A stretch of DNA of 34,143 bases. It comes from Candidatus Nitrosomarinus sp. (GTDB lineage: Archaea; Thermoproteota; Nitrososphaeria; Nitrososphaerales; Nitrosopumilaceae). Both the position numbers and the translations under genes were made by a program. The stretch covers positions 1-34,143 of the forward strand of contig REGF01000003.1 in NCBI GenBank assembly GCA_003702465.1, given 5' to 3'. Shown here in pieces: positions 527 to 9,656 of the stretch (positions within the stretch are counted from its first letter, which is position 1; each line of letters opens with the position of its first letter). Under the pieces are notes generated by a model. That model saw nothing but the letters and a program-made list of their open reading frames with translations. It was not told the DNA's origin and searched no databases.

Positions 527-1975
527 ATGAAAAAAGAGTTGTCTTTTGTACTCAATTATGCGTTAAATAAGGGATTTCAAATTCATCCTGACGCATTTAA
601 AATCTTAGATGACATTACTGATTCTAAAAAATTAGAGAAAATAATTAAAGAAATTGTTAAAGAAAAAACCAGACAAAAACAATATCAAATTAATCAAAAT
701 GATTTAGAAACATATCTAGGAATTAAAGATGATCCAAGTCTCCAAAATGAGTTGAAGGTATTATCAGATCCTTCTTTAAAAATCACTTCTGGAGAAGGTG
801 TTAAAGGATACAATGCCTTGTTTTCAAGTCGTTTTAACAAACTAAAACGAATTATTTCAGAAAGACCGGAATCAAAAATGTTAAAATCAATTGCAGTTGT
901 TAAATCAACAAAATTAGAAAATGATGTTTATGTCTGTGGATTGGTGACTGCCAGAAATGCTGAGCGAAATATTACAAAATTAGTGTTAGAAGACCCTTCA
1001 GGCTCCTTTGAAGGTATAATTTTTGATGAGGAGTTGCAAAAATCGGCTGGAACTCTATTACTAGACCAGTTTGTGATGGTTAGAGTAACTTCAGCAAAAA
1101 ACTCTGGATTAATGATTAAAGACCTAATTATGCCTGATTTGCCTGATCAAAAAATCAATAAATCTGAAAGTGAAGTATTTGCTGTATTTTTATCAGATTT
1201 GCATATTGGAAGTAAATATTTCATGGAAGATGAATTAACTGAATTTGTAAAATGGATTTCTAGTCCTGATCCTGTTGCAAAAAAAATTCGCTTTGTCTTA
1301 ATTGGAGGAGATATGGTTGATGGTGTTGGAATTTATCCTAATCAAAATAAAGAATTAGTTTGTCAAACAATTGAAGAGCAATTACAAAAAGCAGAAGAAT
1401 TATTAGATAAAATTCCAAAAAATGTCAAAATTGTAATTATGCCAGGCAATCACGATCCTGGAAGAAGAGCCCTACCACAACCTGCAATTCCACAAAAATA
1501 CAATTCTGGTTTATGGAATAAAGAAAATGTAGAGATGGTTGGTAATCCAGCCTTAGTTTCATTAAATGGTGTTAAAGTGCTAATGTTTCATGGTCAAAGT
1601 ATTGATGATATTGTAAAAACTACGCCTGGATTGAGTTATGATCAGCCTACTAATGTTATGAAACACTTGCTTAGAGCCAGGCATTTGAGTCCGATTTATG
1701 GTAGTCAAACACCAATTGCACCAGAGGTAGAAGATCTATTAGTAATTGAGGACACTCCAGATATCTTCCATGTTGGACATGTTCATCAAGCCCAATTAGA
1801 TATGTACAAGGGAATTTTACTGGTTAATTCTGGTTCTTGGCAAAAACAAACTCCCTTTCAGGCTAGCGTAGGAATGACACCAAACCCAGGACTTGCAATA
1901 ATTGTGAATCTTAAAACTTTTCAGGTATTTCATGAAAATTATAGTTCTGACTCAAATAATGTCTTGCAAAGTTAA
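527..1975 (+). CDS. polB: DNA polymerase D small subunit DP1 (exonuclease/phosphoesterase subunit)
   Basis: 482 aa; OB-fold region followed by calcineurin-like phosphoesterase motifs (LSDLHIGSKYF, GGDMVDGVG, MPGNHDPGRRALPQPAIP, FHGQSIDD, GHVHQAQ) typical of archaeal DP1. Confidence 0.95.
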   Translation: MKKELSFVLNYALNKGFQIHPDAFKILDDITDSKKLEKIIKEIVKEKTRQKQYQINQNDLETYLGIKDDPSLQNELKVLSDPSLKITSGEGVKGYNALFSSRFNKLKRIISERPESKMLKSIAVVKSTKLENDVYVCGLVTARNAERNITKLVLEDPSGSFEGIIFDEELQKSAGTLLLDQFVMVRVTSAKNSGLMIKDLIMPDLPDQKINKSESEVFAVFLSDLHIGSKYFMEDELTEFVKWISSPDPVAKKIRFVLIGGDMVDGVGIYPNQNKELVCQTIEEQLQKAEELLDKIPKNVKIVIMPGNHDPGRRALPQPAIPQKYNSGLWNKENVEMVGNPALVSLNGVKVLMFHGQSIDDIVKTTPGLSYDQPTNVMKHLLRARHLSPIYGSQTPIAPEVEDLLVIEDTPDIFHVGHVHQAQLDMYKGILLVNSGSWQKQTPFQASVGMTPNPGLAIIVNLKTFQVFHENYSSDSNNVLQS

Positions 1976-3154
1976 TTCGTCTTTGAATGATTTTTTTATT
2001 ATTTCCGAAGAAACAGTTAGTTTGTATTTTTTTGTTCTTCCATGAATTCCTTGGTGAATCAAACGTCCAGAAATAATTCCAGATAATTCAATTTCACTCA
2101 ACATTTGAGTAATTCGTCTTTGAGTTAATTCGTCTTTTCCGACTGTTTTACACAGAGTTTTGTATTGAGTATAGATTTCTCCAGTCGACGAGCCGTTAGC
2201 CTTCATTATTGATAATATGACTAGTTTTTCATGAAGTGGGTATGATTTTAGAGATGCCTCTTCTTTATTTTCTTCAATTTTTTGTGAAGCCTCTCGTACA
2301 TGTTCAATATTGACTTTCTCAGATTGTTGTCTTTCAGCCAATTCTCCTGCTACTCTTAACAAATCTATTGCTCTTCTAGCATCACCATGTTCTCCGCCAG
2401 CTAGGGCAGCACAGAGATTTAATGCTGGTTCTTCTACTGCATCTTCGATAAATGATTCGTTAATTCGTTCTTCTAGAATTTTTTTAATTTGTTCAACATT
2501 ATAGTTTGTAAAGACAATTTCCTCCTCACCAAGACTGCTAATTACTCTAGGATCTAGTTTTTCTTTGAATGTTAAGTCATTTGAAATTCCTACCATTGTG
2601 AGAGAACCGGCGTCTAGTTGTTCGTTTGCCCTTGTTAGTTGGTAAAGAATGTCTTTTCCAGTTTTTACTACTAATTGTGCCAGATAGTCAATTTCATCAA
2701 TGACGAAAACCGCATTTAGTTTTTCATTAGTGATTTTGTTTAGAAGTCTTTTGAATACTTCACTTATAGCAAGCCCAGTTGTTGGTAGTTCTTTTTCATT
2801 TAGCCCTAATTGTCTTCCTAAACTGACTAATAATCCGTATAATGTAGTCTCGTTTTTAGAATTTGAATATACTAATTTTATTGGAAAATTTGATTTTTCA
2901 ACCCTTTCTTGAATTTTTGAAAGTACTTTTTTCACAACTAATGTTTTTCCTGTACCTGGTTTTCCATATACAAGAAGATTGGATGGTCTAGATTGTTTTA
3001 GAATTGGTAATAGTGATTGTGTGACTTGTTCTTGTTCAGAATTTCTGTGAAGTATTGTGTTTGGAATATAGGTAAAATGTAAGATTTCACGGTTTTTTAT
3101 TATTGATTTTCCAGATTCTGCTGCATCAAGCATTCTATCAATCGGGTCAGACAT
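1952..3154 (-). CDS. cdc6: Orc1/Cdc6 family replication initiator (AAA+ ATPase, C-terminal winged helix)
   Basis: 400 aa; Walker A YGKPGTGKT, Walker B VFVIDEID, sensor region MVGISNDL, GEHGDARRAIDLLRVAGELAE, C-terminal wHTH. Convergent 24-bp overlap with the DP1 gene. Confidence 0.95.
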   Translation of the reverse strand: MSDPIDRMLDAAESGKSIIKNREILHFTYIPNTILHRNSEQEQVTQSLLPILKQSRPSNLLVYGKPGTGKTLVVKKVLSKIQERVEKSNFPIKLVYSNSKNETTLYGLLVSLGRQLGLNEKELPTTGLAISEVFKRLLNKITNEKLNAVFVIDEIDYLAQLVVKTGKDILYQLTRANEQLDAGSLTMVGISNDLTFKEKLDPRVISSLGEEEIVFTNYNVEQIKKILEERINESFIEDAVEEPALNLCAALAGGEHGDARRAIDLLRVAGELAERQQSEKVNIEHVREASQKIEENKEEASLKSYPLHEKLVILSIMKANGSSTGEIYTQYKTLCKTVGKDELTQRRITQMLSEIELSGIISGRLIHQGIHGRTKKYKLTVSSEIIKKSFKDELTLQDII

Positions 3155-3401
3155 ACTCAGACACCTTCATTTCCTTTCAATTTCAACATACTTCTCTTTA
3201 ATTTATGAGAGTATAGAATACTATAGTAATTCTAGTTTAGTTTATCATTAATTATTTTTAGTTAGTTTTAGATTTTCAAAAAAAAAAAAATTAAAAAAAG
3301 ATAGAGTGGAAATATTGGTGTGTGGGTTTTAAAATAATTGAAAACTTAGTTAACAAATTGTTAATTATATGTGAAGAAAATCAAAAAAAACCTCATTTTA
3401 A

Positions 3402-3423
3402 CCCCTTTATTTCCATTCCAGGC
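3402..3423 (-). repeat. ORB-like element 1
   Basis: cccctttatttccattccaggc; reverse complement gcctggaatggaaataaagggg. Confidence 0.75.
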
Positions 3424-3462
3424 GTTAACAATCCTATTAACACTGTGAATATCCCAAAAACA

Positions 3463-3484
3463 CCCCTTTATTTCCACTCCAGGC
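3463..3484 (-). repeat. ORB-like element 2
   Basis: cccctttatttccactccaggc; 21 of 22 identical to element 1, 61-bp offset, same orientation. Confidence 0.75.
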
Positions 3485-3593
3485 ATGAAATTCATGTCAT
3501 TAAGGGGGCTAAATTACAAACAAGTTGTTAATAACAAAAAACACACTAGGCGTGGGCTAGGCAGTCAATCTTAACAAACAACAATGTTAACAA

Positions 3594-3610
3594 AACTGAT
3601 CAGATCAGTT
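3594..3610. promoter_or_regulatory. Perfect 8-bp-arm inverted repeat (aactgatc-a-gatcagtt) upstream of the 3645 gene; candidate operator
   Basis: Sequence aactgatcagatcagtt read directly; located about 35 bp before the likely ATG. Confidence 0.5.
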
Positions 3611-3644
3611 CAACCGTTAACATTAGATCTGTATGATCTCAACA

Positions 3645-4034
3645 ATGGCAAAAAAACGAATTAGAATAGATATGGAGGATGCTGACGGGGCCCGTTATGA
3701 TATAAAATTGGAGGGTAATGTAACCAGAGATAAAGTACTAAAAATTTTTGAAATGATGGATTTAATGAATATTGAAGATCAAGAAGAACAATCAGTTAAA
3801 ATGGATTCAACAGGTTCTAAAATCTCACATATTGTAGAAAAATACTTTCCAATGGGAAAATTCACATCTACAAACATACTTGAAAAATACGAAGATGAGT
3901 TCAATGAACCCGTAAAACTTAGTGTAATTTCGACATATTTATCACGATTTGCATCAAAAGGTAGGGTGGAAAGAACAAGAACTGGAAGAGAATGGACCTA
4001 CCAATCCATCAAAATTACTCAAAAACAACAATAA
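3645..4034 (+). CDS. Conserved hypothetical protein with a probable C-terminal winged-helix-like region
   Basis: ORF 3633-4034; in-frame ATG at 3645 (MAKKRIRIDMED...) looks the better start. C-terminal TSTNILEKYEDEFNEPVKLSVISTYLSRFASKGRVERTRTGREWTYQ resembles a small wHTH. Confidence 0.7.
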   Translation: MAKKRIRIDMEDADGARYDIKLEGNVTRDKVLKIFEMMDLMNIEDQEEQSVKMDSTGSKISHIVEKYFPMGKFTSTNILEKYEDEFNEPVKLSVISTYLSRFASKGRVERTRTGREWTYQSIKITQKQQ

Positions 4035-4038
4035 ATCA

Positions 4039-4200
4039 TCAACTAATGGTTACTTTACGAACAATTAACCTATCTTTACCAAGAATCATTTTAACATATT
4101 CGCCTTTTTGAACGTCCATAAATTTTCTAAATTGTTTTGGAATTGATATTGTACCTGCAGACGTAATCTTTACCAGGACTTCATTTTCTTGTACAGACAT
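4039..4200 (-). CDS. AbrB/SpoVT-like DNA-binding protein (53 aa)
   Basis: Manual reverse translation: MSVQENEVLVKITSAGTISIPKQFRKFMDVQKGEYVKMILGKDRLIVRKVTIS*; swapped-hairpin AbrB pattern (VKITSAGTISIPKQFRKFM). Missing from the ORF list because of its length. Confidence 0.8.
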   Translation of the reverse strand: MSVQENEVLVKITSAGTISIPKQFRKFMDVQKGEYVKMILGKDRLIVRKVTIS

Positions 4201-6278: not shown

Positions 6279-9200
6279 ATGTCTGAAAACGACGCAATTT
6301 CTCGTATTCGTGGTATTGAAATGCCTGATTACTATCTAAATTATTATTCAAATCTCTCAAAAGAAACCTATTCAATTTTTGAGCACGCAGCATTAGCAAA
6401 ATCTACTCTAGTTGATTCTTCAGGCATAATTGAGCCGAAAATCGCATTTGATCTAGCAGATAGGGTTGCAAAAATGCACGAAATTGATATTGCTGAACCA
6501 TTAAGAGAAATTTTAAAAATCAACGGAAAAGAGCTTTCTGCATTAATTTTAGCAAAAGATATTGCATTAGGAAAATATTCTCTTCCAGAAGCACCCTTAG
6601 AGGAAAAACTTGATCTTGCGGTTCGTGTAGGGTTAGCAATAATTACTGAAGGAGTAACAATTGCACCATTACAAGGAATTAGTGAAGTTAAAATTAAAAA
6701 AAATAAAGATGGAACAGACTATCTTTCGGTTTCAATTGCTGGACCAATGCGTTCAGCTGGAGGAACTGAATCTGCAGTGACATTATTAATTGCAGATCAT
6801 GTTAGAAAAATTGCAGGATTATCAAAATTTCAAGCAAATTCCTTTGATGATGAAACCGGTAGATTTGTTGAAGAATTGAGAATTTATGAAAGAGAGGCTA
6901 GTAGTTTTCAATTTCATATTTTAGATGAAGATATTGAACATGTAATTTCCAATCTTCCAGTTGAATTAGCTGGAGTTGATACTGATCCATTTGAAGTCGT
7001 AAATCATAAAGGAATGACTCGAATCCAGACAGACAGAGTCAGAGGTGGGGCTTTACGTGTATTAAATGACGGTTTGATTGGAAGATCTAAAAAATTACTC
7101 AAAAGAATTGAAATGTACAATTTAGATGGATGGGAGTGGCTCAATGATCTAAAAGGTGCTGTTCAAACTGGAGATAACCAAGAAGATGCTGCAGCAAAAA
7201 GAATGAGAGAAGTAATTACTGGCAGATCTGTCTTATCTATGCCTAACAAATTAGGTGGATTTAGGCTCAGATATGGAAGAGCATGTAATACTGGGTTTGC
7301 AGCAGTAGGATTTCATCCAGTAGTTGCAGAAATCTTGGATCATACCATCGCAGTTGGAACACAAGTTAAAATTGATATTCCTGGAAAAGGTGCAACTGTA
7401 GCATTTGTCGATACTATTGAAACTCCAACTGTTCGTCTTCAAAACGGAGACGTTGTTAAAATTAAAGATGTCAAACATGGAATTGAAATTAAAAATAAAA
7501 TTGAAAAAATTCTTCATCTTGGAGATGTTCTAATTACATTTGGAGACTTTCTTGAAAATAATGCTCAGTTAGTTCCTTCTGGATATGTGGAAGAAATTTG
7601 GATTGAACAATTAAAGGAAATTATTTCAAAATCTGAGGCTAAAAATCCATTTCTAGAACAATTTTTGATTAAAACACCTTCAGTAGATGAAGCACTAAAA
7701 ATTTCACTTGATTATAATTTTTCATTACATCCACATTATCTCTATTATTGGGATAAAATTTCATTAGAAGAATTAGACCAACTTTTACAAGCAAAAAATG
7801 TTAATGAAAACAAAATTGAATACTCAACAGAAAAAAAGAAAATTTTAGAAAAATTAGGAACCCCACATAAAGTTGAAAATCAATCAATTATCTTAGAAAA
7901 TGAAGAAGCAAAAATTTTCTTCAATTTATTATTTTTAACAAAACCAGAAATCAATGATCTTTCAATACCTGAAATTTTATCAATTTCATCAAAAATTAAA
8001 ATTAATAATAAATTTTCAACGTCTATCGGAGTTAGAATAGGCAGACCTGAAAAAGCTGCTCCACGACAAATGAAACCACCCACTCATACTTTATTTCCTA
8101 TTTCTGATAAAGGAGGACCTACAAGAGATCTGCTTAAAGCATCACGAAATGAGCATTTTTTTGCTAATATTCATAACAGGTTTTGTGAACAATGTAACGA
8201 GCCATCAATAGGAATCAATTGCTCAAATTGTGGTAAGAAAACTTCAGTTATTTTTAGATGTAATAATTGTAGAGATACGTTAACAGAACCATTTTGTGAA
8301 AAATGTAAAAGGAAGGCTCCAGCACATTCACATAAAGAATTTCCACTAAAATCACGACTACTTTTAGCACAAGAAAAAATGGGTTTACGTGCAAAAGAAC
8401 CATTCAAAGGACTTAAGGAATTAATCAGTCAAGATAAAATTGCTGAACCGTTAGAAAAGGGATTAGTACGTCAAACTTTTGGCCTAACAACATTCAAAGA
8501 TGGTACTATTAGATTTGATGCAACAAATTCCCCTTTAACTCAATTCAAGCCATCTTGGATTGGAACTTCTATTGAAAAACTAAAGGAATTAGGTTATTCT
8601 CATGATATTGATGGAAAACCACTAGAAAATATTGATCAAATTATAGAACTCAGAATGCAAGATGTAGTAATTCCTGAAGAGAGTGGAAAATATCTAGTTT
8701 CCACTTGCAAATACATTGATACTCTTTTAACAAAATTCTATGGTAAATCTTCATTTTACAATGTTAACAATCCTGAAGAATTAATTGGTCATCTAATAAT
8801 TGGTTTAGCACCACATACCTCAGTTGGAATTGTAGGGAGAGTTATTGGATATACTGATACTCATGTTTGCTTTGGTACACCGAATTGGCATTCAGCAAAG
8901 AGACGTGATGCTGATGGTGATGCAGATTCAATAATGTTGTTAATGGATAGCTTACTAAATTTCTCAAGACAATTTCTATCTGATAGAATAGGAGGTTTAA
9001 TGGATGCTCCATTACTTGTACAACCTTTAGTCTTACCACATGAATCCCAACCTCAGGCACATAATCTTGAAGTAACAAAAATTTTTCCTCTCGAATTTTT
9101 TGAATCTACAATTCAACAAAGTAAAGCATCTGATGTGACATCAGTTGAAATAATTAAATCTAGATTAGAAACTAAAAGACAATTCTTTGATTATCATTTT

Positions 9201-9656
9201 ACTCATTTCACATCATCGTTAACTACTTCCAAATCACGAAGTGCATATTCAACTCTAGGCTCAATGCTTGACAAATTTGATATGCAAGTAAAAAATGCTG
9301 AATTGATTAATGTGGTAAATCCATCTGAACTTGTCTCAAATGTAATTTCAACACATCTTGTCCCAGATATTATGGGAAATCTTAGAGCATATGCTAGACA
9401 AAGTTTTAGATGTACTGCATGTGGCAAATCATATCGTCGAATGCCTCTTATCCAAACATGTGTTTGTGGACATAAATTAATTGCAACAATAACTCGAGGT
9501 TCTGTAGAAAAATATCTAAAACTTGCAAAAAGATTAGTGGACAAATATGATGTTGGTGAATATCAACGTGGAAGAATCCATGCTTTATCTGATGAAATTG
9601 AATTAGTTTTTGGAAAAGGTCAAGGTGACCAGTCACTACTTACTGATTACGCATAA
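6279..9656 (+). CDS. polC: DNA polymerase D large subunit DP2
   Basis: 1125 aa; VRVGLAIITEGVTIAPLQGISEV, VSIAGPMRSAGGTE, HNRFCEQC...CSNCGKK...CNNC...CEKC zinc cluster, HSAKRRDADGDADSIMLLMD catalytic motif, C-terminal FRCTACGKSYRR...CVCGHKL; no intein seen. Confidence 0.96.
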   Translation: MSENDAISRIRGIEMPDYYLNYYSNLSKETYSIFEHAALAKSTLVDSSGIIEPKIAFDLADRVAKMHEIDIAEPLREILKINGKELSALILAKDIALGKYSLPEAPLEEKLDLAVRVGLAIITEGVTIAPLQGISEVKIKKNKDGTDYLSVSIAGPMRSAGGTESAVTLLIADHVRKIAGLSKFQANSFDDETGRFVEELRIYEREASSFQFHILDEDIEHVISNLPVELAGVDTDPFEVVNHKGMTRIQTDRVRGGALRVLNDGLIGRSKKLLKRIEMYNLDGWEWLNDLKGAVQTGDNQEDAAAKRMREVITGRSVLSMPNKLGGFRLRYGRACNTGFAAVGFHPVVAEILDHTIAVGTQVKIDIPGKGATVAFVDTIETPTVRLQNGDVVKIKDVKHGIEIKNKIEKILHLGDVLITFGDFLENNAQLVPSGYVEEIWIEQLKEIISKSEAKNPFLEQFLIKTPSVDEALKISLDYNFSLHPHYLYYWDKISLEELDQLLQAKNVNENKIEYSTEKKKILEKLGTPHKVENQSIILENEEAKIFFNLLFLTKPEINDLSIPEILSISSKIKINNKFSTSIGVRIGRPEKAAPRQMKPPTHTLFPISDKGGPTRDLLKASRNEHFFANIHNRFCEQCNEPSIGINCSNCGKKTSVIFRCNNCRDTLTEPFCEKCKRKAPAHSHKEFPLKSRLLLAQEKMGLRAKEPFKGLKELISQDKIAEPLEKGLVRQTFGLTTFKDGTIRFDATNSPLTQFKPSWIGTSIEKLKELGYSHDIDGKPLENIDQIIELRMQDVVIPEESGKYLVSTCKYIDTLLTKFYGKSSFYNVNNPEELIGHLIIGLAPHTSVGIVGRVIGYTDTHVCFGTPNWHSAKRRDADGDADSIMLLMDSLLNFSRQFLSDRIGGLMDAPLLVQPLVLPHESQPQAHNLEVTKIFPLEFFESTIQQSKASDVTSVEIIKSRLETKRQFFDYHFTHFTSSLTTSKSRSAYSTLGSMLDKFDMQVKNAELINVVNPSELVSNVISTHLVPDIMGNLRAYARQSFRCTACGKSYRRMPLIQTCVCGHKLIATITRGSVEKYLKLAKRLVDKYDVGEYQRGRIHALSDEIELVFGKGQGDQSLLTDYA

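Follow-up and report, generated by a model that had tools for sequence, protein, structure and literature searches.

The window, a stretch of 34,143 nucleotides from Candidatus Nitrosomarinus sp. (Nitrosopumilaceae; contig REGF01000003.1), encodes an Orc1/Cdc6 initiator that is separated by 478 bp from a divergently oriented winged-helix gene. The gap between the two genes is built like an archaeal oriC of the ORB type, with boxes, AT-rich intervals, and short repeats (Table 1). The best PDB match of the Orc1 protein is the Aeropyrum pernix homolog (2v1u, 2e-84), and its closest named relatives are those of Nitrosopumilus sp. MED-G94 (98% identity) and Nsub (97%). The assembly to which the window belongs encodes a single Orc1; several relatives (among them G034, G074, and G066) encode one to three additional Orc1/Cdc6 paralogs with ~30% identity, which possibly represent integrated elements. 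A small AbrB/MazE-type protein (Pfam PF04014) is encoded on the minus strand between the winged-helix gene and the next gene (4045-4200).

Table 1. Features of the orc1 locus and its surroundings, in positions of the window.
Feature	Position	Strand	Remarks
DNA polymerase D small subunit DP1	527..1975	+	Pfam DNA_pol_E_B; convergent with orc1, overlaps its end
orc1/cdc6 initiator gene	1952..3154	-	400 aa; Pfam Cdc6_lid and Cdc6_C, TIGR02928
Box D, weak ORB	3161..3183	-	overlaps orc1 leader, immediately upstream of start codon
C-D interval	3184..3298		83% AT; holds A13 tract (3278-3290); alternative melting site
Conserved block CTAACTAAAAATAATTAAT	3247..3265	-	high column conservation in 96 aligned loci
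Box C, ORB	3299..3320	+	inverted relative to A and B
B-C interval	3321..3401		80% AT; most likely the duplex unwinding element (DUE) and MCM loading zone
Phased TTMAC array	3349..3375	-	TTCAC-N6-TTAAC-N6-TTAAC; 26, 37, and 48 bp after box B
Box B, ORB	3402..3423	-	130/131 loci; partner of A at 61 or 62 bp
A-B spacer	3424..3462	-	conserved GGATATTCACANTGTTAA and TTAAC abutting box B, by column conservation
Box A, ORB	3463..3484	-	130/131 loci
Outer GTTAAC/TTAAC repeats	3527..3621		between box A and winged-helix gene; conserved columns
Divergent winged-helix gene	3633..4034	+	133 aa; start possibly 3645
DNA polymerase D large subunit DP2	6279..9656	+	Pfam PolC_DP2 domains

The original prediction had placed an origin at 3278-3510 on the basis of two 22-bp repeats, a partial copy in opposite orientation, AT-rich DNA, and an A13 tract. 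The repeats are present as boxes B and A (GCCTGGAATGGAAATAAAGGGG and GCCTGGAGTGGAAATAAAGGGG on the minus strand, respectively, with one mismatch), and the partial copy (GAGTGGAAATATTGG, starting at 3304 on the plus strand) was also recovered. Within the intergenic region, the closest agreement between two 22-mers comprises 21 of 22 positions, and because 300 first-order Markov simulations reached at most 19, the pair exceeds chance expectation; further copies with fewer than 6 mismatches are absent from the window. All three predicted boxes are real, but a fourth and weaker one (box D) had been overlooked, as had the GTTAAC/TTMAC repeats, and the origin extends roughly over 3155-3632. The DNA between boxes B and C is indeed AT-rich; the least stable stretch, however, is located elsewhere (at about 3243-3302), and, for low duplex stability, the best 60-bp segment of the C-D interval reaches the 99.8th percentile of the window. 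The A13 tract is the only run of A or T in the window with a length of at least 10, yet the exact tract is loosely conserved, and it was rejected as a defining element of the origin. Two further elements stand out by their conservation: GGATATTCACANTGTTAA in the A-B spacer, which nearly equals the boxes in this respect, and CTAACTAAAAATAATTAAT, an AT-rich block in the C-D interval, which may be a promoter or a melting element.

Conservation and uniqueness of the ORB boxes

Boxes A and B are present in direct orientation upstream of orc1 in 130 of 131 non-redundant loci of Nitrosopumilaceae, separated by either 61 bp (48 loci) or 62 bp (82 loci), so the 22-mers are conserved in related genomes as predicted. 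An alignment of 96 loci includes also the inverted box C and box D, the latter about 24-29 bp upstream of the orc1 start. At least 12 of 17 positions of GAGTGGAAATATTGGTG are matched by box C in 125 of 130 loci, and at least 12 of 18 positions of the GAGAGGAAACAAAGGTGT core by box D in 112 of 130 loci; in each case, shuffled sequences reach 12 in 4 of 130. An interpretation of the GGTG in box D as a pure ribosome-binding site was rejected because it leaves the conserved GGAAA at ORB spacing unexplained.

The boxes are also virtually unique within genomes. Each of nine Nitrosopumilus genomes (eight of them complete or nearly so) contains exactly two matches to the ORB pattern TNNANTKGAAAYNNNGGGG, always as the pair adjoining orc1, with one control match overall. 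The pattern is matched only by boxes A and B in the entire assembly that contains the window, and the only pair in the 1,645,259 bases of G046, located at 1645088 and 1645150, again adjoins orc1. A stricter pattern yielded about 84 matches in 60 genomes of the genus (versus 2 control matches), with one match outside the pair (in G228).

In other families of the order, the A/B pair was found in 32 of 40 loci, with a spacing of 59-64 bp and, in most cases, an inverted box beyond; a tandem pair spaced by 55-68 bp is absent from 30 genomes elsewhere in the phylum, many of which possess a plus-minus-plus set of ORBs. Judging from this distribution, the tandem arrangement seems to characterize the order; the layout of B, C, and D is possibly more ancient, although this is an uncounted impression.

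Strand skew was analyzed in two complete genomes of relatives (G086 and G046), the window's own assembly consisting of 111 contigs; about half of each genome was sampled in 40 stretches, and the arms were assumed to be equal. The best bipartition by TA skew falls on the sampled stretch at orc1 in G086 (r = 0.59, permutation p = 0.001) and on the last stretch before orc1, across the contig end, in G046 (r = 0.60, p = 0.002), which places the predicted inflection at the orc1 locus. With GC skew, the maxima are in these two stretches as well (p = 0.048 in G086; p = 0.23, nonsignificant by itself, in G046). All of these p values are optimistic because the permutation loses the autocorrelation between neighboring stretches, and G046 is partly masked; the positional agreement across the two genomes is the stronger point. 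The sign of the skew in both genomes is unusual in that T exceeds A to the right of the origin and G tends to fall below C.

Box sequence and initiator residues

Boxes A and B comprise the ORB core TGGAAAY followed by a G-string, which is only partly retained in boxes C and D (GGTG). The full dyad TCCAnTGGA of the archaeal consensus (PMC4164010, PMC4153887), however, is not formed: among the 260 A and B boxes of the family, the tetranucleotide at the position of TCCA is TGGA in 228, TAGA in 29, CAGA in 2, and CGGA in 1, but never TCCA. Since the mapped origin of Nitrosopumilus maritimus counts as ORB type, this mismatch concerns a variable position of the consensus and does not exclude the boxes from the class. 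Other families of the order have TCCA in most of their A and B boxes and never TGGA or TAGA. The variant had been predicted to be thaumarchaeal, but its range is narrower: it is specific to Nitrosopumilaceae, with the canonical half retained by the remaining families.

A parallel change is found in the initiator. In A. pernix Orc1, residues R345, R346, R367, and R369 are close to the DNA (PMC9738581); their counterparts in the alignment of the 2v1u match are R346, R347, Q368, and I370 of the window protein. Position 370, located in the wing, is never arginine in the 96 proteins from Nitrosopumilaceae (I in 86, M in 5, T in 3, S and V in 1 each), whereas all 53 outgroup Orc1 proteins have arginine (23/23 in the order and 30/30 elsewhere in the phylum). 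In a smaller set, 48 other positions of Orc1 also split the family from the order. Because both the box change and the wing change map to the base of one family, they constitute a single event, which is a correlation and no proof of cause.

The TTMAC array and the winged-helix gene

Loci of the family contain about 4.0 copies of GTTAAC per 480 bp, about 27-fold more than the expected 0.15. The repeats in the B-C interval are phased. Among 130 loci, TTMAC lies at an offset of 26 bp from box B in 94 and 27 bp in 20, 37 bp in 98 and 38 bp in 21, and 48 bp in 46 and 49 bp in 30, even though the interval has no constant length (about 57 to 87 bp). Both of the first two sites are present in 113 of 130 loci (0.09 expected from shuffling), a contrast that shuffling overstates because loci of related species are non-independent. 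Agreement between families is the better evidence: all seven loci of family f2 have TTMAC at 26 and 37, and TTCAC is present at 27 or 37 in several distant families (f7, f10, f12); in f8, the motif is mostly off register. Since the 11-bp step corresponds to about one helical turn, the sites would face one side of the DNA.

In whole-genome searches, the strict trio of TTMAC sites was found in eight of nine genomes of the genus and in one of four from other genera, at the origin each time, and was absent elsewhere in the genomes that carry it. A looser search of 21 genomes of the genus gave nine matches, including one that is clearly off the origin (G201) and one that is unplaced (G215). The literature search revealed no earlier description of a TTAAC repeat at an archaeal replication origin.

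The winged-helix gene, which is the only copy in the genome, adjoins the origin in all but one of the 131 family loci. Of the first 20 outgroup loci, 15 show the same linkage, and homologs are present also in the second outgroup set. The C-terminal part of the protein is weakly similar to BlaI/MecI/CopY (Penicillinase_R was matched by 22 of 35 members, best E 1e-7), and Foldseek returned weak MecI/BlaI-type matches (best E 0.0065) for a model of moderate confidence. A sequence search against solved structures gave nothing significant, and the N-terminal part has no match in Pfam. The linkage of the gene suggests a role of its product at the origin. The array may be bound by an additional origin factor, for which the linked protein is only a candidate; in distant families, the gene is present without the full array.

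Probable origin function and comparison with known systems

Direct observations are the anatomy of the region, its conservation among loci, its unique occurrence within the genome, and the switch of strand skew at the locus in relatives. It is very likely that 3155-3632 is the chromosomal replication origin (oriC) of a Nitrosopumilus species, where Orc1 would most likely bind boxes A-C and recruit MCM to the DNA between B and C. By analogy with the systems of Sulfolobus and Aeropyrum, Orc1 from the adjacent gene would bind the tandem boxes A and B, which lie 61 bp apart near the same helix face, and the inverted box C. Initiators on the convergent boxes B and C, which together span 125 bp (3299-3423), would guide MCM to the intervening AT-rich DNA, the presumed place of duplex opening. 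Orc1 bound to box D may repress its own gene, and a further factor may occupy the TTMAC array.

Several alternatives deserve consideration. The boxes might merely serve as operators in the control of orc1 and the divergent winged-helix gene by Orc1, with replication starting elsewhere. The overlap of box D with the orc1 leader would suit this reading, as would the presence of two divergent promoters in the region and the ability of Orc1 paralogs to regulate transcription (PMC9738581), but an operator would need no inverted boxes around AT-rich DNA. The inflection of skew at the locus in two genomes, the lack of any other ORB pair in nine genomes, and the single mapped origin of N. maritimus, whose ORBs form part of the archaeal consensus, likewise render such a purely regulatory function highly improbable. 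A different site of melting and MCM loading, between boxes C and D (3184-3298), is unlikely, although melting could start in this interval, which is the seat of the least stable DNA and of a conserved AT-rich block. Part of its AT richness would be accounted for by the orc1 promoter. Moreover, boxes C and D point away from each other, unlike B and C, which converge as in the MCM-recruiting ORB3-DUE-ORB2 unit of Sulfolobus, and it is the B-C interval that contains the fixed TTMAC array.

With an oriC as the preferred interpretation of the locus, the function of the array can be framed in two ways. It is possible, if rather doubtful, that it represents an essential non-ORB element bound by a dedicated factor, perhaps the winged-helix protein, which acts together with Orc1 or MCM during opening, and that the initiator of Nitrosopumilaceae changed its ORB specificity via the residue that replaced the wing arginine. 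An equally tentative explanation, which we also consider somewhat improbable, is that the TTMAC repeats control transcription of the winged-helix gene or orc1 and have no role in replication. BlaI/MecI-fold repressors bind short palindromes, and the winged-helix neighbor shows a weak match to this fold; TTAAC repeats occur also outside the ORB region, toward the winged-helix gene. Transcriptional control is less easily reconciled with the fixed distance of the array from box B despite a B-C interval of about 57 to 87 bp, and with the same offsets in another family, at about 50% Orc1 identity.

The locus resembles the ORB origins of A. pernix and Pyrococcus in its core (TGGAAAY-AAGGGG) beside orc1 but differs from them in the left half of the dyad and in the Orc1 residue equivalent to R369 of A. 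pernix. The position of DP1 beside orc1 is shared with Pyrococcus. The other families of the order (f2, f8, and others) have the same A/B pair, in most cases the inverted box C, and the winged-helix neighbor, but differ from the window in their canonical TCCA and the retained wing arginine. The oriC1 of Sulfolobus/Saccharolobus is likewise adjacent to orc1 and has inverted ORBs that flank a similarly sized DUE with an extra conserved element inside; in S. islandicus, MCM is recruited to a 130-bp ORB3-DUE-ORB2 unit (PMC12141716). The array is a candidate counterpart of this element, ucm, to which it is similar in position only. The ucm-binding factor UBP has over 300 genomic binding sites and is distributed among Desulfurococcales and Sulfolobales (PMC12141716), whereas strict copies of the TTMAC array are almost restricted to the origin, and the array differs in sequence and repeat form. 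The ucm sequence itself (ATTATACAAAC, 11 bp deduced from published oligonucleotides) has no match with up to two mismatches in 3150-3640, and UBP/ucm was therefore rejected as the DUE element of this locus.

An origin of this kind is already known from a sister species. N. maritimus SCM1, which belongs to the same genus, is reported to possess a single origin of the ORB type; it was mapped by marker frequency (PMC4010727, PMC5333045), and the mapping is credited to Pelve 2013 (PMC4010727, PMC5333045, PMC4153887). The ORB consensus CTTCCAGTGGAAACGAAAGGGGT was derived from active origins that include that of N. maritimus (PMC4153887), and a single true origin is given for SCM1 by Ori-Finder 2 (PMC4164010). 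The origin described here is thus known in kind, and very probably also in place, from this sister species. The papers cited here on the N. maritimus origin contain no mention of the array, box D, or the change in the Orc1 wing. Added by the present analysis are the four boxes, the fourth of which overlaps the orc1 leader, the joint change of box and initiator, and the TTMAC array with its traces across the order.

Ammonia-oxidizing archaea are abundant in the ocean, but a mapped origin is available for one species, and the papers cited here give no dissection of it. The four-box origin, the paired change of box and initiator, and the fixed array provide concrete targets. The discoverers of ucm and UBP ask whether divergent lineages have analogous origin proteins (PMC12141716), and the array together with the linked winged-helix gene makes this question testable in Nitrosopumilaceae. 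The locus also fixes the position of the origin for estimates of growth from read depth in these uncultured genomes.
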